64,000 bases of DNA from Candidatus Shikimatogenerans bostrichidophilus (GTDB lineage Bacteria > Bacteroidota > Bacteroidia > Flavobacteriales > Blattabacteriaceae): assembly GCA_029851265.1 (NCBI GenBank), contig CP099827.1, forward strand, positions 1 to 64,000, read 5' to 3'. This document shows, one piece after another, positions 15,559 to 23,512 of this stretch (position 1 is its first letter; every line of letters starts with the position of its first letter). Under the pieces are notes generated by a model that was not told the origin of the DNA, did no database searches, and worked only from the letters and a program-made list of their open reading frames with translations. The translations under genes and the position numbers were made by a program.

Positions 15559-16317
15559 ATGATAATTAAAAAATATTATAGTCAAAATTTTTTAAAAAAT
15601 AATATAATAAGTAAAAAAATAATAGAATTATTATATATTACTAAAAAAAAATATGATTGTATATTAGAAATAGGTCCAGGATTAGGTATTTTAAGTAAAG
15701 AAATAATTAAAATTTCTAAAAATTTTTTATTAGTAGAAATAGATAAATTTTTAGTAAATTATATAAAAAAAAAATTTTATAAATATAAAAAAAATATTAT
15801 TAATAAAAATATTTTAAATTTAAAATTAAAAAATATAAAAAAATATAAAAAATTTTATATTATAGGAAATTTTCCATATAATATATCTTCTAAATTGTTA
15901 TTATGGATAATAAAAAATAGAAATAATATAGTTGAATGTATAGGTACTTTTCAACAAGAATTTATAAATTCTATTATTTTAAAAAAAACTAGATTGTCTT
16001 TTATATTTAATATTTATTTTAAAATTAAAAAAAAATTTAAAATTGATAAAAATAATTTTTATCCTATACCTAAGGTAGATTCATTAGTTGTTAAAATAAT
16101 AAATAAAAAAAAAGAAATAAAAAAAATAAATAAAAAAAAATTTTTTTTTCTTATTAAAGAAACATTTAAATATAAAAGAAAAATATTAAAAAATTCTTTA
16201 AAATATTATATAATACAAAAAAATATTAAATATAAAAATTATAAAATTTTTTTTAAAAGACCAGAACAGTTATCTATTAAAGATTTTAAAAATTTATATA
16301 AAATAATTTATAAATGA
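15559..16317 (+). CDS. rsmA: 16S rRNA dimethyladenosine transferase RsmA (KsgA)
   Basis: Dimethylates two adjacent adenosines in helix 45 of 16S rRNA, a late 30S maturation step. The SAM-binding motif is LEIGPGLGILSKEI (about residues 35-48), the start YSQNFL matches the family's GQNFL, and the catalytic motif NLPY appears as NFPYNISS (about 105). The C-terminal RPEQLSIKDF block is also present. It ends in TGA overlapping the ATG of era by four bases (ATGA), so the two are probably translationally coupled. Length 252 is typical. Confidence 0.96.
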   Translation: MIIKKYYSQNFLKNNIISKKIIELLYITKKKYDCILEIGPGLGILSKEIIKISKNFLLVEIDKFLVNYIKKKFYKYKKNIINKNILNLKLKNIKKYKKFYIIGNFPYNISSKLLLWIIKNRNNIVECIGTFQQEFINSIILKKTRLSFIFNIYFKIKKKFKIDKNNFYPIPKVDSLVVKIINKKKEIKKINKKKFFFLIKETFKYKRKILKNSLKYYIIQKNIKYKNYKIFFKRPEQLSIKDFKNLYKIIYK

Positions 16318-17204
16318 AAAATATAGAAAAATTTTATAAATATTATAATTCTATTATTAGTATTATAGGTTTTAGTAATGTTGGTAAATCATTTTTGTTT
16401 AATAAAATATTGAATAAAAAAATATCTATTGTAAATAAAAAAATTCAATATACTAGAAAAATAATAGTTTATGATTTTATTTTAAATGAAAAAAAAATAT
16501 TATTAATAGATAATCCAGGATTTATTTTTAAAAAAAAAAAATATATATATAAAATAATAAATCAATATATATATGAATCAATAAATATATCAAATATTAT
16601 TTTATATGTTACTATAAATAATAAATATTATTTAAATAAAGATAAATTTTTTTTTTATTTTAAAAAAAAAATAAAAAAAAATATAATATTAATAATATTT
16701 AATAAAAAAAAAAAAATAGATAATTTTTATTTAAAATTATTTATTAAAAAAAATATTATTAATATTAATAACATTAATAGTTTTTTTAAAAAAAAAAATA
16801 ATTTATTAATAAATAGAATAAATAAATTAACTAAAAAAAAAAAAATATTATTTAATTATAAATATAATATTACTTATGGTTTAAAGTTTAATATATGTGA
16901 AATTATAAGAAATAATGTTTATAAAATATACAAAAAGGAAATACCATATTCTTCAGAAATAATAATAGAAAAATTTTTAAATTTAAAAAATAAATTAATT
17001 ATTTATTGTATAATTTATTTAGAAAAAATATCTCAAAAAAAAATTTTAATAGGTAAAAATGGTAAAAACATAAATAAACTTAGTTTATATTCTAGAAAAT
17101 ATATAAAAAAAATATATAAAAAAAAAATTTATATAGATTTTATTATAAAAATTATAAAATGGAAAAATAATTATAAATATTTAAAATTTTTTGGTTATTT
17201 TTAA
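16314..17204 (+). CDS. era: GTPase Era
   Basis: Era is an essential GTPase that binds the 3' end of 16S rRNA during 30S assembly, next to the RsmA target. The 296 residues show G1 GFSNVGKS (about 19-26), the Q-Y-T-R switch I, G3 DNPG and a C-terminal KH domain (KKILIGKNGKNINKLSLYSR, then FGY at the end). The G4 motif is altered: the usual NKxD reads NKKKKID. Der (EngA) is excluded because there is one G domain followed by a KH domain. It is coupled to rsmA upstream, with hisH 9 bases downstream. Confidence 0.93.
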   Translation: MKNIEKFYKYYNSIISIIGFSNVGKSFLFNKILNKKISIVNKKIQYTRKIIVYDFILNEKKILLIDNPGFIFKKKKYIYKIINQYIYESINISNIILYVTINNKYYLNKDKFFFYFKKKIKKNIILIIFNKKKKIDNFYLKLFIKKNIININNINSFFKKKNNLLINRINKLTKKKKILFNYKYNITYGLKFNICEIIRNNVYKIYKKEIPYSSEIIIEKFLNLKNKLIIYCIIYLEKISQKKILIGKNGKNINKLSLYSRKYIKKIYKKKIYIDFIIKIIKWKNNYKYLKFFGYF

Positions 17205-17213
17205 TAAAAAAAA

Positions 17214-17810
17214 ATGAATATAATAATAATAAAATTATTAAATAAAAATATTAATAAAAAAATAATTAATGTTTTTAATTATTTGGGTATTAAACCAATA
17301 ATAACTAATAATAAAAATAAAATTTTAAATTCAGATAAGGTTATTATATATAGTACATTTGATATAAAAAAAACTATAAAATTAATAAAAAAAAAAAAAT
17401 TAAATAAAATTATATATAAATTAAAACAACCTGTATTAGCTATTTCTATGGGTTTATATATGTTATGTTATAAATATAAAAAAATTAAATTTTTAAATAT
17501 TTTTAAAAATATAAAAATAAAAAAAATATTAGATTTTAATAAAGAAAGTAAAAATAATATTGGATGGAGTAAAGTTTATCATAATAATGATGAAAAATTA
17601 TTTTATGGATTAAAAAAAAATTATTTTTATCAATATTTTATACATAATTATTATATAACAGTTGGTAAATATTGTATATCTCATACTAATCATATTATAT
17701 CTTATAGTGCAGTATTGAAAAAAAATAATTTTTATGGATTACAATTTAATCCTGAGATATCAGGTGAAAATGGAAGAAAAATATTAATAAATTTTTTATA
17801 TTTAATTTAA
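17214..17810 (+). CDS. hisH: HisH-like glutamine amidotransferase subunit, catalytic residues lost
   Basis: Resembles HisH, the class I glutaminase that feeds ammonia to HisF in imidazole-glycerol-phosphate synthase. The HisH framework is clear in the C-terminal half: NIGWSKV (family MGWNxV), YFIHNYYI (family FVHSYYV) and GLQFNPEISGENG (family GVQFHPEKSG). The nucleophile is missing: the CLGMQ elbow reads AISMGL, so Cys is Ser78. The catalytic His is Asn179, and only Glu181 remains. The oxyanion PGVGxF segment is also gone. Length (198) is normal and the frame is intact. PdxT is less likely because the GWN and HSYY blocks are HisH-type. Glutaminase activity is not expected, and the present role is unknown. 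Confidence 0.75.
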   Translation: MNIIIIKLLNKNINKKIINVFNYLGIKPIITNNKNKILNSDKVIIYSTFDIKKTIKLIKKKKLNKIIYKLKQPVLAISMGLYMLCYKYKKIKFLNIFKNIKIKKILDFNKESKNNIGWSKVYHNNDEKLFYGLKKNYFYQYFIHNYYITVGKYCISHTNHIISYSAVLKKNNFYGLQFNPEISGENGRKILINFLYLI

Positions 17811-17818
17811 AATTAAAA

Positions 17819-18505
17819 ATGAATAAATTTTTTGTACCATTTTTAACAATTAATAATAAATTATATAATACAATATATTATAAAAATAATAAATATAAAT
17901 TAGATTATATAAAAATTTTTTTTTTATATATTAAACGAAGTGCAAATGAGATTTTTATTTTTGATAATTTTAATATAAATAATAAAAAAAAAGTTTTTTT
18001 AAATATTATTAATAGATTATCATATAATTATAATTTACCAATAAGTATTGAAATTAAAATTAAAAATATTAATTATTTTAATAAATTATTTTTCAATGGA
18101 GTTAACAAAATAATGTTAGATTATTTTTTTTTAAAAAATGATTTATTTTTAAAAAAAATGTTAAAATTTGATAATACAATAATTATTTTAAAAATTTTAA
18201 GTTATAGTAAATTTATTAATTTATTAAATAATAATAAAATAGATTTTAATTATATTAATAAATATAGTGAAATATTATTATATTTTAAAGAAAAAAAAAA
18301 TAATATATATAAAATTATAAATATATTAAAAAATACAATTAATAAAATTAAAATTAGAAAAATAATTTTTTTAAATATAAAAAATATTTTTTTTTTAAAA
18401 AAAATATTTTTAAAATTTAATATTAATGTAATAATTAATAATTATTTTTTTTCTTTAAATAAAAAAAATAGAAAAATAATATTTAAAAAAATTAATATTT
18501 ATTAA
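17819..18505 (+). CDS. hisF: HisF-like cyclase subunit, catalytic residues lost
   Basis: Probably a degenerate HisF, the barrel-fold cyclase partner of HisH. Its start MNKFFVPFLTINNK follows HisF (xxRIIPCLDVxxG), and RSANEIFIFDNFN matches the GADELVFLDI strand. The NLPISIEI stretch stands where NIPxTVGGG is expected. The catalytic aspartate of CLD is Thr10, the VAIDAK aspartate region reads IIILKI, and the DRDGT and phosphate-binding GG motifs are not visible. At 228 residues it is slightly short of the usual 250. Assignment depends heavily on the adjacent hisH, 8 bases upstream. HisA is a weaker alternative. It is still an open frame in a tight operon with suf genes. Confidence 0.6.
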   Translation: MNKFFVPFLTINNKLYNTIYYKNNKYKLDYIKIFFLYIKRSANEIFIFDNFNINNKKKVFLNIINRLSYNYNLPISIEIKIKNINYFNKLFFNGVNKIMLDYFFLKNDLFLKKMLKFDNTIIILKILSYSKFINLLNNNKIDFNYINKYSEILLYFKEKKNNIYKIINILKNTINKIKIRKIIFLNIKNIFFLKKIFLKFNINVIINNYFFSLNKKNRKIIFKKINIY

Positions 18506-18516
18506 TTAATAAACTT

Positions 18517-18852
18517 ATGTTATATATATCTAAACAAGCAAAACAAAAAATATTATATTTAATTAAAAAAGATAATTTATCTTTAGAAAATATTTTTTTA
18601 AGAATAAATTTAAAAAATGGTGGATGTTGTTCTGGGTTTTATTATAAATTAAAATTTGATAATAAAAAAAAAAAAGATGATAAATTGTTTATAATTAAAA
18701 AAATAAAAATTTTAATAAAAAAAACATTTTTAATTTATTTAAATGGTTTAAAATTACATTATAAAGAAGAATTAAATAAAAATGGTTTTATTTTTATAAA
18801 TCCTAATTCAAAAGAAACTTGTGGATGTGGAAATAGTTTTAGTTATTATTAA
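18517..18852 (+). CDS. sufA: A-type Fe-S carrier protein (SufA/IscA family)
   Basis: Carries Fe-S clusters from the SufBCD scaffold to client proteins. The 111-residue protein has the three A-type cysteines: one in GGCCSGFYYKL (about residue 34) and two in the C-terminal CGCG of KETCGCGNSF (about 105). The family form is GGCSGFxY followed by CGCGxSF. It begins 11 bases after hisF and ends 5 bases before sufB, so it heads the suf operon. Whether it is SufA, IscA or ErpA cannot be told from the sequence; sufA is chosen by context. Confidence 0.9.
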   Translation: MLYISKQAKQKILYLIKKDNLSLENIFLRINLKNGGCCSGFYYKLKFDNKKKKDDKLFIIKKIKILIKKTFLIYLNGLKLHYKEELNKNGFIFINPNSKETCGCGNSFSYY

Positions 18853-18857
18853 TAATA

Positions 18858-20258
18858 ATGAAAAAAGAATTTATAAAAGAAAAATATAAATATGGATTTT
18901 ATACTAAAATTAAATCTAATACTTTTCCATTAGGTATTAATAAAAAAATAATAAAAAAAATTTCTAAAATTAAAAAAGAACCTAAATGGTTTACTAAATG
19001 GAGACTAAAATCTTATAGTTATTGGAAAAAAAATATTTATAAATATCCAAAATGGGCTAATTTACGTTACAAAAAGATAAATTTTAAAAAAATTAGTTAT
19101 TTTTCTAAAATAGAAAATAAAAAAAATAAAAAATTAATAAAAACATTTAATAAATTAGGTGTACCAATAAACAATAAATTTGATAAAATTTCAATAGATT
19201 TTATTTTTGATTCTATTAGTATTAAAACAACTTATAATAAAATTTTGAAAAAATATGGTATTATTTTTTGTCCTCTTAGTGAAGCAATTAAAAAATATGA
19301 AAATTTGGTTAAAAAATATATAGGTAGTGTAGTACCATATAATGATAATTTTTATTCAGCCCTAAATTCCTCTGTTTTTTCTGATGGTTCTTTTTGTTAT
19401 ATTCCTAAAAATATTAAATGTCCTATAGATTTATCAACATATTTTAGAATTAATAATGAAACAATAGGACAATTTGAAAGAACTTTAATAATAGTAGAAG
19501 AAGGAGGATACGTAAGTTATTTAGAGGGATGTACTGCACCAATAAGATCAAATAATCAATTACATGCTGCAGTAGTAGAATTAATAGCTTTAAAAAATTC
19601 TAAAATAAAATATTCAACTATACAAAATTGGTATCCTGGAAATAAAAATGGTAGAGGTGGTATATTAAATTTTGTTACTAAAAGAGGTATTTGTTATGAA
19701 AAATCTAAAATATCATGGATACAAGTAGAAACTGGATCTTCGGTAACATGGAAATATCCATCATGTATACTTAAAGGAGATAATTCTATAGGAGAATTTA
19801 AATCAGTTTCTTTAACAAAAAATTATCAACAAATAGATACTGGTAGTAAAATGATACATATAGGAAAAAATACTAAAAGTACAATAATTTCAAAAAGTAT
19901 ATGTATGGATAATTCTATAAGTACATATAGAGGTTTAGTAAAAATATGTAAAAATTCTAAAAATTCTAATAATTTTACTCAATGTGATGCTTTATTAATA
20001 GGAAAAAAGTGTAGTTCTTATACTTTACCATATATATTATCTATGAATTCAACATCTAGGATAGAACATGAATCAACTATATCAAAAATAGAAGAAGAAC
20101 AAATTTTTTATTGTAATCAAAGAGGTATAGATAATGATAACGCTATGTCTTTAATAGTTAGTGGATTCAGTATGAATATAATAAATAATTTACCATTAGA
20201 ATTTGCTTTTGAAGCTAAACAGTTATTAAATATTAAATTAGAAAATAGTGTAGGTTAA
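18858..20258 (+). CDS. sufB: Fe-S cluster scaffold protein SufB
   Basis: SufB, with SufC and SufD, forms the SufBC2D complex on which Fe-S clusters are built. The 466 residues match family length and include GVPINNKFDKISIDFIFDS, the VVPYNDNFYSALNSSVFSDG block (about 150-170), YLEGCTAPIRS (about 220) with a conserved Cys, and the C-terminal RGID(N)DNAMSLIVSGF block. It is well conserved compared with SufD. The neighbours sufA, sufC, sufD and sufS are all co-directional. Confidence 0.97.
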   Translation: MKKEFIKEKYKYGFYTKIKSNTFPLGINKKIIKKISKIKKEPKWFTKWRLKSYSYWKKNIYKYPKWANLRYKKINFKKISYFSKIENKKNKKLIKTFNKLGVPINNKFDKISIDFIFDSISIKTTYNKILKKYGIIFCPLSEAIKKYENLVKKYIGSVVPYNDNFYSALNSSVFSDGSFCYIPKNIKCPIDLSTYFRINNETIGQFERTLIIVEEGGYVSYLEGCTAPIRSNNQLHAAVVELIALKNSKIKYSTIQNWYPGNKNGRGGILNFVTKRGICYEKSKISWIQVETGSSVTWKYPSCILKGDNSIGEFKSVSLTKNYQQIDTGSKMIHIGKNTKSTIISKSICMDNSISTYRGLVKICKNSKNSNNFTQCDALLIGKKCSSYTLPYILSMNSTSRIEHESTISKIEEEQIFYCNQRGIDNDNAMSLIVSGFSMNIINNLPLEFAFEAKQLLNIKLENSVG

Positions 20259-20274
20259 ATTATAAAAAATTAAT

Positions 20275-20997
20275 ATGTTAAAAATAAAAAATTTATATGT
20301 ATCAATTAATAAAAATTTAATTATTAAGGGATTAAATTTAAAAATTAAAAAAGGAGAAATACATATTATTATGGGACCTAATGGATCGGGTAAAAGTACA
20401 TTGTCTTATATTATAGCTGGTAAACCAAAGTATAAAATAGAAGATGGAGAAATATTATTTAATAATAAAATTATAAATAATTTAAAACCTGATAAAATAT
20501 CTAAATTAGGAATTTTTTTATCATTTCAAAATCCAGTAGAAATAGATGGATTAAGTATGTATAATTTTATAAAAAGTTTTATAAAAAAAAAAAATAATAA
20601 TAATATATTAAAAAATATATATAAAAAATGTGAAAAATTAAATATAAATAAAAAATATTTATCTCGTTATTTTAATTTAGGTTTTTCTGGAGGTGAAAAA
20701 AAAAAAAATGAAATTTTACAAATGTTAATTTTAAAACCAAAATTAACTATTTTAGATGAAATAGATTCAGGATTAGATATAGATTCATTAAAAAATATTT
20801 TAAATAATATTAAACAATATATAAATAAAAAAAAAAAAAAAAGATCTTTATTAATAATTACTCATTATACTAATATAATAAATTATATTAAACCTAATTT
20901 TGTTCATATTATATATGATGGAAAAATAATAAAATCAGGTAATAAAAAATTAATTAAAAAAATAGAAAAATATGGATATAATAAATTTATAAATTAA
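20275..20997 (+). CDS. sufC: Fe-S assembly ATPase SufC
   Basis: ABC-type ATPase of the SufBCD complex; it is cytosolic and not a transporter. The 240 residues show Walker A GPNGSGKST (about 36-44), Q-loop SFQNPVEIDG, the ABC signature FSGGEKKKNEI (about 137-147), Walker B LTILDEIDSGLDID and the switch His in IITHY. The SufC-specific LDEIDSGLDID form separates it from transporter ATPases. The stop codon overlaps the start of sufD by one base. Confidence 0.97.
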   Translation: MLKIKNLYVSINKNLIIKGLNLKIKKGEIHIIMGPNGSGKSTLSYIIAGKPKYKIEDGEILFNNKIINNLKPDKISKLGIFLSFQNPVEIDGLSMYNFIKSFIKKKNNNNILKNIYKKCEKLNINKKYLSRYFNLGFSGGEKKKNEILQMLILKPKLTILDEIDSGLDIDSLKNILNNIKQYINKKKKKRSLLIITHYTNIINYIKPNFVHIIYDGKIIKSGNKKLIKKIEKYGYNKFIN

Positions 20998-22274
20998 TGA
21001 ATATTAAAATAATAGATATAAATAAATATATAAATAAAAAAAAAATAAATAATAATAAATTTTTAAAATTAATTTATAAAAATTTTATTAAAAAAAAAAA
21101 GCCAAATTTTTTAATAGAAGAATGGAGGTATTCTAAAATTAATTATATAATAAAAAGAAAATATAATATAGAAAAAAAAAATAAAAAACTAAAAATAGAT
21201 AATTATAATTTTAAAAAAGATGATATTAATATTTTTTTTATAAATGGTTTTTTTTATAAATATAATATTAATAACATTAATTTAATTTTTAAAATTAAAA
21301 AAAAAAAAATTAATAATATTAATAAATATTTAAATTTAATTAAAAATTATAATTATTTTTCTTATTTAAATATTATATCTTCTTTTTTAAATAAAAATAA
21401 ATGTATTTTTTTATATATTAAAAATAAAAATAAAAATAAAAAATATATTAATTTAAAATTAAATTATATTTATAATATTAAAAAATCTATTATGACTAAT
21501 ATAAAAATTTTTATTTTTGTTAGAAAAAATACATTTTTAAATATTAAAGAAAAATATATAATTAATAATAAAAATAAAAAAATTTTACATAATAATTTGT
21601 TAAATATTTATATTAAAAAAAAAAGTAATGTTATATATTTAAAGTATAAAAATAATAATTTAAATTTTATTTCTATTAACAACGTTTATATATTTCAAAA
21701 ATCATTAAGTAAATTTTATTTATATGACTTTTATATTAATGAAAGATATACATTAAATTATATTAAAGTAAATAATATATCAAATAATTCTTTATGTAGA
21801 TTATATGGAATTATAATAGGTAATAAAAATCAAATTATAGAAAATTATATAAAAATAAAAAATAATTATAATTTTTGTAATAATAAACAGTATTATATAG
21901 GAATATATGATGATAAATCTATAGGAATATTTAATAGTATAATAAATATTAAAAAAAAAACAAAATATAATATATCTTATCAAAAATATAAAAATTTTAT
22001 TTTATCTGATAAAGTTTTTTTATTTTTAAAACCTCAATTAAATATTTTATCTAATAATATTAAATGTTCTCATGGTGTAAATATAGGTAAAATAGATAAA
22101 AATATAATTTTTTATTTACAATCTAGAGGTATACCTTTATATAAAACTAAAATTATTTTTTTTTTATCTATTTTTTATAAAATATTTAATAATAAAGAAT
22201 TAAAGTATTTTAAAGATTTTATAAAAAAAATAAAATATAATTTAAAATTAAAATTAAAATTAATTTGTAAATAA
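20997..22274 (+). CDS. sufD: Fe-S assembly protein SufD
   Basis: SufD pairs with SufB and SufC as scaffold and iron-entry subunit. The 425 residues are strongly diverged, but family landmarks remain: EEWRYSKINY near the N-terminus (family ExWRYT), and the C-terminal ILSNNIKCSHGVNIGKIDKN (family IxADDVKCSHGATVGxLD) with the conserved Cys-Ser-His, then LQSRGIP. The middle is Lys/Asn/Ile low complexity. Position between sufC (1-base overlap) and sufS (1-base overlap) fixes the assignment. Confidence 0.93.
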   Translation: MNIKIIDINKYINKKKINNNKFLKLIYKNFIKKKKPNFLIEEWRYSKINYIIKRKYNIEKKNKKLKIDNYNFKKDDINIFFINGFFYKYNINNINLIFKIKKKKINNINKYLNLIKNYNYFSYLNIISSFLNKNKCIFLYIKNKNKNKKYINLKLNYIYNIKKSIMTNIKIFIFVRKNTFLNIKEKYIINNKNKKILHNNLLNIYIKKKSNVIYLKYKNNNLNFISINNVYIFQKSLSKFYLYDFYINERYTLNYIKVNNISNNSLCRLYGIIIGNKNQIIENYIKIKNNYNFCNNKQYYIGIYDDKSIGIFNSIINIKKKTKYNISYQKYKNFILSDKVFLFLKPQLNILSNNIKCSHGVNIGKIDKNIIFYLQSRGIPLYKTKIIFFLSIFYKIFNNKELKYFKDFIKKIKYNLKLKLKLICK

Positions 22275-23512
22275 TGTTTACAAAAAAAGAAATAATAAAT
22301 ATAAGAAATCAATTTCCTATTTTTAGTAAAAAAATTAATGGATATCCTTTAATATATTTTGATAATTCATCAACAACTCAAAAACCTAAATGTTTAATAA
22401 ATAAAAATAAATATTATTATTATAATTTAAATTCTAATGTATATAGAAACAATTGTTATTTAAGTAATAAATCTACATTTTATATAGAAAAATGTAGAAA
22501 TATAATAAAAAATTTTATTAATGCTAATAGTAAAAAAGAAATAATTTTTACTAAAGGTACTACAGAATCAATAAATTTAATATGTAATTGTTTAAATAAT
22601 ATAAATATATTAAAAAAGAATGATGAAATAATTATATCTTTATTAGAACATCATTCTAATATTATACCTTGGCAATATTTATGTAAAAAAAAAAAATTAA
22701 TTTTAAAAATTATTAATATAAATAAAAAATATAATATATCTTTAAAATCTTTAAAAAATATAATATCTAACAAAACTAAAATAATTTCTATTACACATAT
22801 ATCTAATGTTTTTGGTACAATTTTACCAATAAAAAAAATAGTAGAAATAATTAGAAATAAAAATAAGAATATTATTATAATATTAGATGGTGCTCAATCT
22901 ATATCTCATATACCAATAAATGTTAAATCATTAAATATAGATTTTTATGCTTTTTCTACTCATAAAATATACGGACCTTATGGATTGGGTATATTATATG
23001 GTAAAAAAAAAATATTAAATCAATTTCCACCATATCAATTAGGAGGATCTATGATTAAAAGTGTAACATTAAATAAAACAATATATACAGATTTACCTAA
23101 AAAATTTGAAGCAGGTACTCCTAATATATGTTCTATATTTTGTTTTTTATATGTTATAAAGTATATAAATAAAATTAATATTTACAATATTAATATTTAT
23201 GAAAAAAAATTAATTAATTTTATTAAAAATTTATTTTTAAAAAATAAAAATATAATTTTATATGGTAAAAATAATATACATTCTTCATCAATATTATCTT
23301 TTAATATTAAAAATATAAATAATTTTGACATAGGATGTATGTTAAATAAATATGGTATATGTGTAAGAACGGGGTATCATTGTTCTCATCCATTAATGAA
23401 ATATTTAAATATAAATGGTACTATAAGAATTAGTTTTGGTATGTATAATACTATAGAAGAAATAGATAAATTTTATTTTTTTTTATTAAAAATAATAAAA
23501 TTATTAAAATAA
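22274..23512 (+). CDS. sufS: Cysteine desulfurase SufS
   Basis: PLP-dependent enzyme that removes sulfur from cysteine as a persulfide for Fe-S cluster assembly and probably for MnmA-dependent tRNA thiolation (mnmA is in this window). The 412 residues show YFDNSSTTQKP, LEHHSNIIPWQ with the PLP-stacking His, DGAQSISH, the PLP lysine in STHKIYGPYG (about 229) and the catalytic Cys in RTGYHCSHPLM (about 367). No SufE gene is seen in the window. The 3' end converges on and overlaps the ftsY reading frame by 9 bases. Confidence 0.97.
   Translation: MFTKKEIINIRNQFPIFSKKINGYPLIYFDNSSTTQKPKCLINKNKYYYYNLNSNVYRNNCYLSNKSTFYIEKCRNIIKNFINANSKKEIIFTKGTTESINLICNCLNNINILKKNDEIIISLLEHHSNIIPWQYLCKKKKLILKIININKKYNISLKSLKNIISNKTKIISITHISNVFGTILPIKKIVEIIRNKNKNIIIILDGAQSISHIPINVKSLNIDFYAFSTHKIYGPYGLGILYGKKKILNQFPPYQLGGSMIKSVTLNKTIYTDLPKKFEAGTPNICSIFCFLYVIKYINKINIYNINIYEKKLINFIKNLFLKNKNIILYGKNNIHSSSILSFNIKNINNFDIGCMLNKYGICVRTGYHCSHPLMKYLNINGTIRISFGMYNTIEEIDKFYFFLLKIIKLLK

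Follow-up and report, generated by a model that had tools for sequence, protein, structure and literature searches.

HisH of IGP synthase (TIGR01855) and the cyclase subunit HisF (TIGR00735, PF00977) are the closest described counterparts of the two proteins considered here. A loss of glutaminase activity comparable to that described below is known from human CPS1, whose S2 domain is an inert glutaminase domain of the class I amidotransferase type with Ser in place of the catalytic Cys (PMC4655335). Candidatus Shikimatogenerans comprises bacteriome symbionts of bostrichid (wood-boring) beetles, in which little is left beyond information processing and the shikimate pathway (PMC10284843). The closed genomes of Candidatus Shikimatogenerans bostrichidophilus range from 172,971 bp to 200,377 bp (PMC10284843). 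The window, i.e., the whole stretch of 64,000 nucleotides that was analysed, belongs to a single-contig genome of 200,377 bp from this species. The articles consulted on these symbionts are silent on hisH, hisF, and amidotransferases, which may be annotated in supplementary material. In the literature searched for inactive HisH, no precedent was found for a free-standing HisH that is catalytically dead and under selection.

The window protein is like HisH of IGP synthase in descent, length, predicted fold (TM 0.91 to 4gud), and operon position. It differs in lacking the catalytic Cys, the oxyanion loop, and the pathway; across the genus, the catalytic His is gone from six of seven HisH copies, and five of the seven genomes are without HisF. 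The HisF encoded next to it resembles the cyclase subunit in its N-terminal half, in its order after hisH, and in the eight beta-alpha units of a low-confidence model. However, it has no catalytic aspartates or phosphate loops, its C-terminal half is unrecognisable by profile, and HisF occurs in only two Shikimatogenerans genomes. The likeness to CPS1 lies in the exchange of Cys for Ser and the loss of glutaminase activity in a domain of the class I amidotransferase type. In CPS1, this domain is fused to a functioning synthase that uses free ammonia, whereas the window HisH is a stand-alone ORF.

A genome of some 200 kb is commonly regarded as reduced to its essentials and cleared of leftovers. 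The dead HisH is constrained as strongly as housekeeping genes even though pathway, partner, and neighbours have been lost, which suggests that a relic can find a new use in a reduced genome. It also suggests that the label HisH is misleading, as it would attribute to the symbiont a histidine step that it does not have. The protein also offers a clean, small system for learning what a pseudo-amidotransferase can do. The features of the locus are listed in Table 1.

Table 1. Coordinates of the HisH/HisF locus, its neighbours, and the residues discussed in the text, as positions in the window.
Feature	Positions	Strand	Basis or remark
ksgA (rsmA) and era, upstream neighbours	15559..17204	+	era absent at this spot from G001 and G005, which keep hisH
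HisH-derived pseudo-amidotransferase, 198 aa	17214..17810	+	TIGR01855, AF2, Foldseek, synteny
Codons 46-49 (YSTF), where the oxyanion-loop motif PGVG stood	17349..17360	+	alignment
Codon 78 (TCT), Ser replacing catalytic Cys	17445..17447	+	alignment
K-x-L-N-I-F, codons 92-97	17487..17504	+	invariant in genus save at x
Trp118, aligned with GW Trp (T. maritima hW123, HisF interface)	17565..17567	+	alignment
YHNND, codons 122-126; His123 is an inserted residue	17577..17591	+	alignment
HTN, codons 157-159	17682..17690	+	invariant in 7/7
Codon 179 (AAT), Asn replacing catalytic His	17748..17750	+	alignment
Remnant of HisF (228 aa), eroded, with an open frame but no catalytic motifs	17819..18505	+	PF00977, synteny
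sufA, sufB, sufC, sufD, sufS, downstream neighbours	18517..23512	+	suf not found downstream of G001 hisH

A HisH protein without its catalytic site

The product of the first ORF matches TIGR01855 with E=5.4e-25 and 88.4 bits in a profile search, below the curated cut-off of 105.4 bits. V. cholerae HisH (4gud) aligns with it at E=1.2e-16, and a profile-profile comparison gives E=7.6e-43. The AF2 model has a pLDDT of 89.4 and a pTM of 0.88. When Foldseek was run with this model, V. cholerae HisH (4gud) was the best match (TM 0.91), and the top matches were HisH or HisHF. The protein descends from HisH beyond doubt, and its class I amidotransferase fold is predicted to be intact. PdxT, GuaA, and TrpG/PabA were rejected as identities, since HisH profiles and structures score higher.

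The original prediction, which was made from the letters of the window, placed Ser78 at the position of the nucleophilic Cys and Asn179 at that of the catalytic His. Both codons are as predicted, so that the window protein does not have the Cys-His-Glu triad of HisH; the oxyanion loop is missing as well. The glutamine-site residue Gln82 is likewise gone. In the alignment, the nucleophilic Cys and the PGVG oxyanion loop are absent from all seven HisH copies of the genus. Position 78 is Cys in 30 of 30 functional HisH, Ser in six genomes of the genus, and Val in G001. Position 179 reads N/Y/F/Y/H/F/D across the genus, with His in G006 only.

Both frames are open at the coordinates that had been given, with 8 bases between the HisH and HisF ORFs and 11 bases between the HisF ORF and sufA. 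Stop codons make up about 12% of codons in random sequence of this composition. At the local base composition, a random open frame of the same length has a probability of about 1e-11 for HisH and about 2e-13 for HisF, and therefore these long frames are not due to chance.

The HisF remnant

The second ORF matches PF00977 with E=3.9e-5, a score equal to the gathering threshold, and only in the N-terminal half. A profile-profile comparison, which had been proposed as a check, gives a weak match as well (E=7.6e-5). Descent from HisF, which the N-terminal half shows weakly, is backed by synteny, and synteny and the ancestral hisH-hisA-hisF order in relatives settle the place of the gene. Thr10 stands in place of Asp, and the GGG, DGT, and SGGAG motifs are gone, in agreement with the earlier reading that the catalytic aspartates and phosphate loops have been lost. 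With a GC content of 0.083 at codon positions 1 and 2, the lowest of the window genes listed, HisF is also the most AT-driven of them. In the genome G011, a PF00977 gene that is probably hisA (G011:C4:3117-3796) lies in two pieces with a frame change.

The alignment of the HisF copies of the window genome (G000) and G005 scores z=16 over shuffled controls, which indicates that the frame has been under some constraint. The two copies are 0.49 identical, however, and shuffled sequences already reach 0.40. Compared with functional HisF, the copy of G005 can hardly be recognised (z at most 2.6). Glu44 and Lys97 are retained in both copies despite the lost catalytic motifs. In functional HisF, the residues aligned with them are the conserved E46 and K99, which lie at the barrel base in the T. 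maritima structure. The AF2 model of HisF (pLDDT 65.9) shows eight alternating beta-alpha units; its input alignment was made of HisF relatives, and the match of the model to HisF barrels is therefore partly circular.

Distribution of HisH and HisF in the genus

The genus sample consisted of nine genomes including that of the window, and G004 and G007 are CP099829 (BCAP) and CP099830 (HHAM). A syntenic HisH ORF of 190-199 aa, open from start to stop, is present in seven of the nine genomes and missing from G002 and G003. The original prediction had seen no other his genes in the window, and this holds more widely. None of the nine genomes, including the whole 200,377-bp window genome, gave a match to hisG, hisD, hisB, or hisI, while controls and pathway-bearing relatives gave strong matches to these genes in the same searches. 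Two of these relatives, G013 (L099) and G009 (L101), have kept hisG, hisB, hisH, hisF, and hisI with no hisD match, and their histidine pathway is incomplete.

HisF is present only in G000 and G005. It was searched for elsewhere in the genomes that lack it beside hisH and was not found there. HisH working with HisF in a histidine pathway is seen nowhere in the genus, in which the other pathway genes are absent and both HisF copies are without catalytic motifs. In a metG tree, G004, G007, G008, G002, and G003 form a clade that is entirely without HisF. The carriers G000 and G005 lie outside this clade, together with the HisF-less G006 and G001. This placement implies at least two losses of HisF and a single loss of HisH (G002/G003). 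The loss of hisH on the stem of G002 and G003 indicates that its function is dispensable there. In the metG searches, the match in the relative G013 (L099, 6986-8581) contains a single in-frame TAG; in G009, the gene is represented only by a short metG-like fragment.

Gene neighbourhood

The his operon adjoins ksgA in the relatives G009, G010, and G013, so HisH and HisF need not be recruits into an era-suf operon. Most likely, they sit at their ancestral site, and deletions moved the neighbouring genes next to them. An origin by recruitment into a new operon was considered and is unneeded given the operon of the relatives. In the window, a sufA/erpA-like gene lies between hisF and sufB (18517-18852); none of the other eight genomes of the genus has a counterpart in this position.

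The arrangement of the neighbours varies among the genomes. In G001, hisH directly follows ksgA, and neither era nor suf was found around it. G005 has hisH but no era beside ksgA. Between era and sufB of G002 and G003 lie only 30-38 bases, without hisH, and sufB is intact. Since hisH is kept without era and/or suf and is lost with sufB intact, polarity explains neither its presence nor its absence, and operon constraint was dismissed as the cause. HisH persists independently of HisF, era, and suf.

Purifying selection on HisH

G004 and G007 are the only pair of HisH sequences with unsaturated dS; the omega of other pairs carries little meaning. The original prediction had called for dN/dS between strains, and in this pair, both members of which lack HisF, it is 0.064 at a dS of 1.27 (2dlnL 54 against omega=1). 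The neighbouring genes have dN/dS values of 0.02-0.125, a range that includes HisH. Values near 1 together with frameshifts in sister strains had been named as the sign of plain decay; they were looked for in HisH and not found. The suggested parallel decay under polarity is rejected for HisH by this omega and by the gene layouts of G001, G002, G003, and G005.

Because dS is saturated elsewhere, protein conservation was compared instead. Mean pairwise identity is 0.55 for HisH, 0.58 for ksgA, 0.57 for era, and 0.54 for sufD. Shuffled HisH gives about 0.31, a background that is raised by the strong AT bias. Genus-wide, HisH is approximately as conserved as the nearby rRNA methyltransferase (ksgA). 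The seven sequences share 40 invariant columns, of which 34 lie within residues 73-198, and approximately none are left after residue shuffling. Columns invariant in functional HisH are kept at a rate of 0.32 in a hand-chosen active-site set and 0.57 elsewhere (permutation p=0.013).

Purifying selection acts on HisH; the active site drifts, and motifs of the genus are nearly fixed. Catalytic residues are lost and selection is kept, as in a pseudoenzyme. In the HisH tree, a long stem (1.01) leads to the genus and is followed by constraint. A change of function would leave such a pattern, but compositional drift may account for part of the stem length, since several rows fail the composition test.

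Motifs specific to the genus

Three motifs distinguish the HisH of the genus from the 30 functional sequences. N95 of the K-x-LNIF motif stands where functional HisH has an invariant Gly. In YHNND, which is absent from the functional sequences, the Y, the H, and the first N are found in all seven copies and the second N and the D in six. At the columns of HTN, functional HisH mostly has K-T-E/D. The invariant His residues of YHNND and HTN lie at the ends of strands 117-123 and 154-159 of the AF2 model. Trp118, in contrast, is retained solely in the two HisF carriers, G000 and G005, and in G006.

Possible roles of HisH

The PF00117 and PF00425 searches revealed neither a second class I amidotransferase domain nor a chorismate-binding synthase in the genus, and the CPS1 arrangement, an inert amidotransferase on a working synthase, was not found. 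There is consequently no evident enzyme to which HisH could feed ammonia. As the symbiont makes chorismate, a chorismate-using amidotransferase partner was also considered and was discarded because PF00425 is absent. A weak glutaminase that still supplies ammonia through Ser78 is extremely improbable. Ser is a possible weak nucleophile and is present in six of the seven copies, and the hC84S mutant of T. maritima has strongly reduced rather than nil activity (PMC8115485), but the His, the oxyanion loop, and Gln82 are gone too, and G001 has Val. Plain decay, with the frame still open through the short time elapsed or through harm to downstream suf expression, would agree with the loss of the histidine pathway, the absence of hisH from G002 and G003, and the clear erosion of HisF. 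It is nevertheless very doubtful. The HisF-less pair G004/G007 has an omega of 0.064, the frame is open in seven lineages that diverged far past dS saturation, and conservation is like that of ksgA. Furthermore, hisH is kept without era and/or suf and was deleted with sufB intact, and with a host family aged 155-170 Mya and co-speciation (PMC10284843), there has been plenty of time to remove the gene.

Two other readings accept that HisH is maintained. His123, Asn124, His157, Thr158, and Asn159 might together make up a new active site or a new ligand site on the existing fold. Two genus-invariant His residues, one of them inserted and both absent from functional HisH at these columns, would suit new chemistry, as would their location at strand ends in the model and the long stem followed by constraint. 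However, no substrate or pathway gap points in this direction, and the aroE of the shikimate pathway that is reported missing in the symbiont (PMC10284843) could not be linked to HisH; we regard this reading as unlikely. The original prediction had offered survival of the HisH-HisF complex in a non-enzymatic role. The non-enzymatic role fits HisH, and the retained pair does not, as five of the seven HisH genomes are without HisF. A dead bienzyme complex with a selected joint surface, whose face would be used with another protein where HisF is missing, is accordingly quite unlikely. The open frames of both genes in G000 and G005, the restriction of the interface residue Trp118 to G000, G005, and G006, and the retention of HisF Glu44 and Lys97 favour it, against the near-unrecognisable G005 HisF and the AT-driven codon positions of HisF.

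The reading that we prefer, with a probability of about two in three, is that HisH is the last maintained piece of a his-operon relic that has stayed in place, and that it is kept as a folded, non-catalytic binding protein. The glutaminase chemistry would have been lost no later than the onset of the genus radiation, after which purifying selection would have kept HisH as a folded protein without catalysis. HisF may first have stayed as a dead structural partner; it was later lost in at least two lineages and survives in strongly eroded form in the window genome and G005. HisH would bind another retained component of the cell, or itself, most likely through the C-terminal beta-sheet half that carries K-x-LNIF, YHNND, and HTN; both the binding or scaffold role and the surface used are inferred. 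Somewhat more tentatively, having survived the loss of its pathway, active site, and partner, HisH may have become a new, as yet unnamed functional protein built around YHNND and HTN, in a symbiont genome that is among the smallest. In view of the confinement of Trp118 to three genomes, the old HisF face seems to have been freed once HisF was lost, and the conserved C-terminal sheet may serve something other than HisF. The most diverged HisH copy of the genus is that of G008, in which HPEK has become DLLK.
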